38,090 nucleotides of DNA, taken from IMG/VR virus record IMGVR_UViG_3300035180_001763, positions 1-38,090 of that record. One strand, given 5' to 3'. Source of the stretch: a virus. The notes under the pieces were generated by a model, which saw only the letters and a list, made by a program, of their open reading frames with translations, had not been told where the DNA came from and did no database searches. The position numbers and the translations under genes are program-made. Below are positions 49 through 16,133 of this stretch, one piece after another (the stretch's first letter is position 1; the number at the start of each line of letters is the position of its first letter).

Positions 49-197
49 TGAATTTTACAGAAATCTCTTTTTGCATTTCTTTGCTCTACCAGCTGAGCTA
101 CCTCTCCATATGAATTTGGAGGAGAGGTGACGATTTGAACATCCGACACAAGAATTTTCAATTGCTTTGGTTTGCTATAAGATTTCTGTAAAATTCA
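49..197 (-). tRNA. Circularly permuted tRNA-Cys(GCA) gene with flanking inverted repeat
   Basis: Reading the minus strand, the 3' half comes first (154-117): anticodon-stem 3' strand TTCTT, variable loop, T-arm with loop TTCAAAT, acceptor strand CCTCTCC, discriminator T, encoded CCA. After a 9-base spacer (116-108) the 5' half follows (107-70): acceptor GGAGAGG, TA, D-arm GCTC..GAGC, anticodon strand AAGAA, loop ATGCAAA. The acceptor (7/7) and anticodon (5/5) stems pair perfectly between the halves. The loop gives anticodon GCA and the discriminator T fits Cys. Outside the halves, 180-197 and 49-66 are a perfect 18-bp inverted repeat that would bring the two anticodon-loop ends together. Removal of the stem and joining the ends would make a normal tRNA. 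An ordinary tRNA-Cys also exists at 13656-13731. Activity is inferred. Confidence 0.8.
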
Positions 198-203
198 TTA
201 GTT

Positions 204-289
204 TGGTACTGAAGGCCGGACTTGAACCGGCACGCCCGAAGGCGAGGGATTTTAAGTCCCTTGCGTGCTACCAATTTCGCCACTCCAGC
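204..289 (-). tRNA. tRNA-Leu(TAA), class II
   Basis: Full cloverleaf on the minus strand with acceptor GCTGGAG/CTTCAGT, anticodon loop CTTAAAA, a long variable arm (CGCCTTCGGGCG) and encoded CCA. The class II variable arm and D-arm AAATTGGTAGC fit leucine. It is the first normal tRNA behind the promoter at 361-383. Confidence 0.93.
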
Positions 290-4151: not shown

Positions 4152-4234
4152 ATATTTTTGCATTGATCTATGAAGTGAGTTATTTTATCTCGAGTTATTT
4201 AACTTTTCATCATTTTTTGAAAATCTATTATTAA

Positions 4235-4300
4235 CTTGTGGGATTTGAACCCACGCTTTTCGCCAAAGGGCAACTATACTAACCACTCTATATTAAAGCT
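4235..4300 (-). pseudogene. Decayed tRNA-like sequence
   Basis: A perfect T-arm (GTGGG-TTCAAAT-CCCAC) and a D-loop-like TGGTTAG are present. The acceptor strands do not pair and the central stem TTGCC/GGCGA closes a loop of only four bases. It lies between the promoter at 4459-4481 and the element array. Confidence 0.5.
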
Positions 4301-4458
4301 CATTTTAGATTTAAATATCAACTAGTCTCTACATTTCTTTCGTTTTAGGGGTAATTACTCCACTAAACAATTCCAGTTATGTATTGACTTTAAACAATCG
4401 TTATGTAGGATCCATCTACTAAACGATTTTTTAAAATCAATTTTTTATTTGTTTTAAC

Positions 4459-12817: not shown

Positions 12818-12988
12818 TTGTTTACCTTTTTATTTAATTTCTTTCTGATTTTGTTCTATATATCTCTAAGGATTTAAAGATAGAATCTATTCTCTGTGTT
12901 TATATTCAAAAATGAGAAAACTTAGTTTCATTAAAATTTTTAATTACTTACATCTTATACCGCGTGAAGGTGTTTCTCTTATAAGACC

Positions 12989-13058
12989 AGGGAATCGGGG
13001 AATTGAACCCACGACCTTCGGGTTTGGAATCCGATATTCTACCATTATACTAATTCCC
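12989..13058 (-). tRNA. tRNA-Trp(CCA), no encoded CCA tail
   Basis: Acceptor GGGAATT/GATTCCC, anticodon loop TTCCAAA, T-loop TTCAATT. The T-stem has a bulged T (CG-T-GGG/CCCCG) and the anticodon stem has an A31-C39 mismatch. The 3' end reads T then GGT, so the tail must be added. The same two flaws occur in tRNA-Cys at 13656. Confidence 0.85.
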
Positions 13059-13061
13059 TAT

Positions 13062-13655: not shown

Positions 13656-13731
13656 TGGAGCCGAATGAGAGAATCGAACTCATCATCTACGGGTTTGCAA
13701 TCCGTTATACTAGCCATTATACTAATCCGGC
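13656..13731 (-). tRNA. tRNA-Cys(GCA)
   Basis: Acceptor GCCGGAT/ATTCGGC, anticodon loop TTGCAAA, discriminator T and CCA. The T-stem has a bulged T (GA-T-GAG/CTCTC) and A31-C39 mismatch, as in tRNA-Trp at 12989. It has the same anticodon as the permuted gene at 49-197. Confidence 0.9.
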
Positions 13732-16057: not shown

Positions 16058-16133
16058 TGGTTGCTGTTGCAGGAGTTGAACCTGCTGTCTCTGGGTTATG
16101 AGCCCAGCGGCGAAACCGTTTGCCCCTACAGCT
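16058..16133 (-). tRNA. Initiator-type tRNA-fMet(CAT)
   Basis: Anticodon stem CTGGG/CCCAG has the three consecutive G-C pairs typical of initiators, with loop CTCATAA. The first acceptor pair is A1-A72, unpaired as in initiator tRNAs. T-loop TTCAACT, discriminator A, CCA. Position 7-66 is also unpaired. Confidence 0.8.

Follow-up and report, generated by a model that had tools for sequence, protein, structure and literature searches.

Introduction

Bacterial Y RNAs are partners of the Ro60 protein and mimics of tRNA, and they are known to serve as tether and gate for a nuclease. One of them, YrlA, has a domain that resembles tRNA (PMC7790460), and a crystal structure of YrlA can be superposed on tRNA once a circular permutation is allowed for (PMC11472068). 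Jumbo phages are known to encode TROVE proteins (PMC7824862), and Y RNAs of mycobacteriophages are reported in a passage of PMC12282133 that cites Chen et al. 2014. In KVP40-like Vibrio phages, genes resembling the element described here have been termed low-score pseudo-forms (PMC3468402, PMC5107563). Here we describe a circularly permuted tRNA-shaped element in the window, a 38,090-nt viral contig (IMG/VR record IMGVR_UViG_3300035180_001763), and compare it with these RNAs.

Results

Organization of the permuted element

As shown in Table 1, the minus strand from 197 to 49 carries, in transcript order, the 3′ half of a tRNA, a 9-nt spacer and the 5′ half of a tRNA. Both halves are enclosed by an 18-bp inverted repeat with 100% complementarity (180-197 with 49-66). 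Across the halves the acceptor stem pairs at 7/7 and the anticodon stem at 5/5 positions, and the T stem has 4/5 pairs with a G49/A65 mismatch. The acceptor stem is capped by a 13-nt loop composed of the spacer and U73-CCA. The 5′ and 3′ ends of the RNA pair over 18-19 bp as the enclosing stem, which surrounds 113 nt of structured tRNA. At the junction, inspection shows a large asymmetric internal loop of about 24 by 9 nt. The predicted fold, with the enclosing stem closed, has an energy of −47.7 kcal/mol (z = −5.95), and 0/200 shuffles were as low. The permuted halves within the repeat, the two fully paired stems, the encoded CCA and a U73 suiting Cys had been put forward in a preliminary description of this DNA and are all borne out.

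Table 1. Positions of the element, its parts and neighbouring features in the window.
Feature	Position	Strand	Basis
Ordinary tRNA-Leu(UAA), 6 nt upstream of the element	204..289	-	ARAGORN/Rfam-type tRNA calls
Enclosing stem, 5′ arm TGAATTTTACAGAAATCT	180..197	-	complementarity to 49-66; closed in minimum-energy fold
25-nt linker, stem to 3′ half, with UAGCAAACC	155..179	-	sequence
tRNA 3′ half: anticodon stem 3′ strand, variable loop, T arm, acceptor 3′ strand, U73, CCA	117..154	-	sequence and ARAGORN on rejoined halves
TTCTT (nt 39-43)	154-150	-	sequence
Variable loop GTGTC	149-145	-	sequence
T arm	144-128	-	sequence
Acceptor 3′ strand CCTCTCC	127-121	-	sequence
T73	120	-	sequence
CCA	119-117	-	sequence
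9-nt spacer, CCA to 5′ half	108..116	-	sequence, fold
tRNA 5′ half: acceptor 5′ strand, D arm, anticodon stem 5′ strand, ATGCAAA	70..107	-	sequence and ARAGORN on rejoined halves
Acceptor 5′ strand GGAGAGG	107-101	-	sequence
TA	100-99	-	sequence
D arm	98-83	-	sequence
A26	82	-	sequence
AAGAA (nt 27-31)	81-77	-	sequence
ATGCAAA	76-70	-	sequence
Linker, 5′ half to stem	69-67	-	sequence
Enclosing stem, 3′ arm	49..66	-	complementarity; closed in fold
Next downstream gene start: GGAAGGAAAG ribosome site, then ATG (MKQMWEILVPT...), truncated by contig end	1..35	-	sequence
Ordinary tRNA-Cys(GCA) of the window phage	13656-13731		tRNA search

The rejoined tRNA was called as tRNA-Cys(gca) by ARAGORN when the halves were joined into a 76-mer; the element in its native order was missed by ARAGORN and by the Rfam tRNA model at gathering. 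A break at 36-38/39 yields the loop AUGCAAA, that is Cys GCA, consistent with U73. A break at 31-34 yields U/AUGAAAA, that is Phe GAA, and fits equally well. The anticodon is ambiguous between Cys GCA and Phe GAA, so that the complete GCA anticodon previously proposed follows from the first break and is not unique.

The element and the tRNA-Leu(UAA) probably share a transcript, and the contig ends 48 nt downstream of the element. The window phage is tRNA-rich. Rfam tRNA matches missed by the ARAGORN run lie at 12988-13059, 16061-16133 and 4230-4302 (minus), the last one weak (32 bits). The terminase is nearest to those of the Vibrio phages phiKT1024 (46%), pv27, phiTY18 and Va1 (43%). Contigs with the same terminase (L001-L003) stop short of the element. 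An exact-pattern scan of 2.9 million viral contigs with the acceptor-spacer-acceptor of the window gave no match, and the neighbouring tRNA-Leu and the next downstream protein found nothing when used as search queries. Neither the 38-kb contig nor the contigs from the same strain (76, 30 and 25 kb), all of them fragments, contained a TROVE (Ro60) gene, and no RNA ligase was found in the window-phage fragments.

Permuted relatives in isolated phages

A permuted RNA is present in both phiKT1024 and Va1; its enclosing stem is A+T-rich and 15 bp long, and its split arm reads ACG|GC AUGUUAA GCCGU. Among six isolated Vibrio phages this RNA is conserved at 96-100%. The genomes of phiKT1024 and Va1 also encode an Rnl1-type RNA ligase and, ∼20 kb from the permuted RNA, a TROVE protein; Pfam assigns the phiKT1024 protein to TROVE (71.5 bits), and it also matches TROVE proteins of solved structure. 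In Vibrio phage TDDLMA, otherwise 96% identical, the acceptor cap is GAAAA and not UAGAUUA, a change not easily squared with a processed tRNA 3′ end. In Rhizobium phage RHph_TM30, three unannotated permuted RNAs lie immediately upstream of TROVE (L419:1379, 1534 and 2121; TROVE at 2273), and the second of them has U73-CCA in the spacer and a GUGUC variable loop, as in the window. The permuted architecture, which the preliminary description had proposed to look for in relatives, is found in the six isolated Vibrio phages and in RHph_TM30.

Permuted elements with a common insert end, GUUACUUC, and differing break points in the anticodon arm were observed in L318 (two elements), at L231:11224 and at L419:1379; these may represent a third insert type. 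The contig of L318 also has a TROVE match.

Candidate YrlA-type RNAs in Ro60 loci

In a permissive Rfam search, YrlA (RF02553) matched the whole window element over the full model with 27.5 bits (E 6.5e-4), below the gathering score of 69 bits. One set of Ro60-adjacent phage RNAs likewise gave no report at RF02553 gathering. Weak YrlA matches were also produced by tandem tRNAs in 13/14 control genomes, and because tandem tRNAs score similarly, the Rfam match alone was set aside.

Ro60 loci of phages and bacteria were collected via their TROVE proteins and searched with a detector modelled on the window element (T arm, 7-bp acceptor, loop, D arm), which gave 89 further candidate YrlA-type RNAs. 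In most of them GGUUAUC precedes the anticodon side and the lower stem is GGGCCG/GCCCG. This signature, the usual Ro60-binding motif, is absent from the window element, and the Bosea L057 RNA and the phiKT1024 RNA are also without it. No Rfam YrlA was found near the Ro60 gene of jumbo phage pir03.

The two nucleotides that follow position 26 were then fused to the 15 immediately preceding the variable loop, and an arm was scored as restored if it had 5 stem pairs and a 7-nt loop with U33. By this measure 37/89 Ro60-adjacent RNAs have a complete anticodon arm that is split after nt 28; shuffled sequences gave 0.7 and swapped halves 7.8. As judged from these sequences, many YrlA RNAs contain in their tRNA domain an entire tRNA, interrupted after nt 28, and the anticodons vary. 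A complete arm is therefore no proof of decoding. Several of the Ro60-linked RNAs combine Ser/Leu anticodons with short variable loops, and UUCG occurs in 14/90 detected acceptor loops; these features point to mimicry rather than decoding. Bacterial and phage Ro60 loci also hold tRNAs of normal order with a Y-RNA-like insert after nt 28 and canonical anticodon arms (L058:2509, L159:481, L076:3507, L103:3563, L077:3108).

Insert-containing tRNAs of KVP40-like phages

Sensitive BLASTN of the window element gave matches in KVP40-like Vibrio phages, at sites annotated as pseudo or as tRNAs of 114-122 nt. In these genes the tRNA keeps its normal order, and the anticodon arm is interrupted by an insert of 38-47 nt that contains a small hairpin and a WGCAAYC-like motif; UAGCAAACC of the window linker resembles WGCAAAC in the KVP40-like and F86 inserts. 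Removal of the insert restored a 5-bp stem and a 7-nt loop with U33 in 15/32 (shuffled mean 0.13), the break being after nt 28 or 29. The discriminator suits the anticodon in several of them (Asn GUU-G73, Asp GUC-G73, Met CAU-A73). Some linear orthologs have an unconserved anticodon (AGG to UAG) or 8-nt loops, and one family restores no arm. One insert-tRNA family (GGAGAG acceptor, AAAGA/UCUUU) is near the window element in sequence, but with the break later in the loop. Synechococcus phage BUCT-ZZ01 has two insert tRNAs (L348:2495 and 2625) that score 50.7 and 37.6 bits with the Rfam tRNA model despite the insert. Similar genes occur in several IMG/VR contigs, some of them permuted, and a narrow insert pattern found one viral contig only. 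Among the carriers with long records, the majority have T4-type RNA ligases; no TROVE was found in KVP40, F86 and BUCT-ZZ01, which carry related insert tRNAs.

The KVP40 'tRNA-Pseudo' genes are located at L344:6405, 6646, 6769 and 8443, with orthologs in L339-L342 and L345-L350; the insert hairpin CUGNNAAG is followed by WGCAAYC. Across more than 40 phages the KVP40-family insert tRNAs are conserved with compensatory acceptor changes. Ligases of both the Rnl1 and the Rnl2 type are encoded by BUCT-ZZ01. For the KVP40-type inserts, a reading as introns at 37/38, within an anticodon loop since lost, was considered and rejected, as most inserts lie after nt 28 with the arm intact downstream. RtcB was rejected as the joining ligase, since neither 10 insert-tRNA records nor 20 records of Ro60 phages contain it. 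Many restored anticodons of the KVP40-type and permuted elements are GUU, GUC or GUA. Colicin E5-type nucleases cut the anticodon set GUU, GUC, GUA, and such anticodons could be compatible with a decoy role.

Covariation of the split stems

Elements were aligned with the acceptor stem required to pair at at least 6 positions. Across 19 rejoined elements, including that of the window, 99.7% of cells pair, and every one of the seven acceptor and five anticodon-stem pairs shows double changes, well in excess of shuffled and slid controls (n=19). A hand-made control table with swapped partners gave ∼54% pairing. Since the anticodon arms were partly selected by pairing, the shuffle test given above (15/32 vs 0.13) is the fairer one for that stem. 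Covariation of both split stems in relatives, named in the preliminary description as potential support, is observed.

Discussion

On sequence grounds, the permuted-tRNA-shaped phage RNA gene is real and evolutionarily maintained, not debris, and the window element is a better candidate for a tRNA look-alike than for a functional tRNA. We consider it slightly more probable than an even chance that it is a small phage RNA of the YrlA kind. Such an RNA would form a complete tRNA-like cloverleaf, circularly permuted and with a loop-closed acceptor stem, and its two ends would pair in a long stem leaving the anticodon arm. It would stay unspliced, the enclosing stem being held by a phage Ro60-like protein whose gene would lie outside the contig. 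Its tRNA-like end may engage tRNA-binding enzymes, either as a nuclease tether or gate as in Y RNAs, or as a decoy protecting tRNAs during infection.

The YrlA-like reading is favoured by the 89 Ro60-adjacent candidate RNAs of the same architecture found by the same detector, by the weak whole-model YrlA match, and by the frequency of the restored arm among them, which makes such an arm typical of Y RNAs too. The permuted RNA and TROVE in the nearest relatives phiKT1024 and Va1, the RHph_TM30 RNAs beside TROVE with their U73-CCA/GUGUC copy, the TDDLMA cap change and the ordinary tRNA-Cys of the window phage argue in the same direction. Against it stand the missing signature, the lack of TROVE in the window-phage fragments, the distance between TROVE and RNA in phiKT1024 and Va1, and the insert tRNAs of KVP40, F86 and BUCT-ZZ01 in genomes without TROVE. 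Moreover, U73-CCA with GCA makes a better tRNA-Cys than a mimic requires, and the Rfam YrlA score is within the range of tandem tRNAs. The class to which the element belongs is best read as YrlA-like, a Y RNA whose head is an entire tRNA. We do not assign the window element formally to RF02553: it has no Ro60-side signature, scores below gathering, and no Ro60 gene is seen in its fragment. The gene type, at first thought new to phages, shares its order and enclosing stem with YrlA-type Y RNAs (permutation, PMC11472068), whose reported occurrence in phages is cited in the passage of PMC12282133 mentioned above. Nor is the element necessarily a decoding tRNA, as had been assumed: many YrlA RNAs have a split complete arm, the anticodon is ambiguous and an ordinary tRNA-Cys(GCA) is present.

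The leading rival to mimicry is maturation by cutting and ligation, which we regard as possible though rather unlikely. A nuclease would cut a true permuted pre-tRNA at the insert boundaries next to the anticodon arm, a T4 Rnl1/Rnl2-type ligase would circularize it, and RNase P and 3′ processing would remove the spacer, leaving tRNA-Cys(GCA) or tRNA-Phe(GAA). The fully canonical rejoined tRNA with CCA and U73, the arms restored by insert removal in normal-order tRNAs and the discriminator-anticodon fit in several of these are in its favour. Linear and permuted forms coexist, as they do in algae with tRNA splicing. T4-type RNA ligases are present in most long-record carriers, but Rnl1/Rnl2-type ligases are common in T4-like phages without such tRNAs, so their presence weighs little, and none was found in the window fragments. 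To our knowledge, no tRNA splicing endonuclease exists in bacteria. The unconserved anticodons, 8-nt loops and unrestored arm among the linear orthologs, and the Ser/Leu anticodons, short variable loops and UUCG-capped acceptors of the Ro60-linked relatives, also speak against processing. It is doubtful that split tRNA genes, either in normal order with a 38-57 nt insert or permuted, are cut and ligated into working tRNAs in T4-like phages and perhaps bacterial Ro60 loci; if they were, this would mean protein-based tRNA splicing in bacteria, possibly by phage RNA ligases, with Y RNAs as tRNA 'introns'.

Two tandem tRNA genes that lost their outer halves would leave the same half order, the phage is tRNA-rich, and tandem tRNAs produced the weak YrlA matches of the control genomes. 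A relic of this origin, or functionless tRNA debris, is nevertheless very improbable: 7/7 acceptor pairs, 5/5 anticodon-stem pairs and a perfect 18-bp stem would all be coincidence, and in tandem arrays the detector did not find a fully paired acceptor together with a long enclosing stem. Isolated phages conserve homologous permuted RNAs, whose stems covary, and this conservation already largely refutes a relic. Least credible of all is a hairpin that closes a tRNA operon and terminates transcription or stabilizes the RNA, with incidental tRNA pieces. An 18-bp hairpin does lie between a tRNA and the next gene, but the arm is followed by GGAAGGAAAG with no T run, and the stem contains a structured tRNA.

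These results widen the range of Y-RNA-like permuted tRNAs to T4-like phages, where some forms lack the usual Ro60 signature, and reveal that many YrlA RNAs contain a complete anticodon arm broken after nt 28. The 'pseudo tRNAs' of the KVP40 family receive a common reading as tRNAs with an insert at the same kind of place. Decoy or spliced to tRNA becomes a direct question, addressable in the cultured phages phiKT1024, RHph_TM30 and KVP40.

Among known systems, the window element shares with YrlA (RF02553) the order of T arm, acceptor and D arm, the loop-closed acceptor, the ends paired in a long anticodon-side stem and the occurrence in phages. It differs in the missing GGUUAUC and GGGCCG/GCCCG, in its perfect, A+T-rich 18-bp stem, in an anticodon-arm break at 31-34 or 36-39 instead of 28/29, and in that a Ro60 gene is unseen in the available fragment. 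The phiKT1024/Va1 and RHph_TM30 RNAs have the same permuted cloverleaf, likewise without GGUUAUC; the A+T-rich enclosing stem is shared by the Vibrio RNAs only, and the U73-CCA spacer and GUGUC loop by the second RHph_TM30 copy. In contrast to the window, these RNAs have the anticodons GUU and UGU, a break near 29/30 and TROVE in the genome. Closest by sequence are KVP40 tRNA-Pseudo-4 and its orthologs, with a GGAGAG acceptor, an AAAGA/UCUUU anticodon stem and an insert that begins with AAAGAAUUCUGUAAA and has WGCAAAC; their order is unpermuted and the insert hairpin has a small closing loop. Algal and archaeal permuted tRNA genes, like the window element, have the 3′ half first and can be rejoined at the anticodon loop to a canonical tRNA, whereas the window element has by inspection no bulge-helix-bulge (two 3-nt bulges around a 4-bp helix), encodes CCA and is enclosed as a unit by an 18-bp stem.
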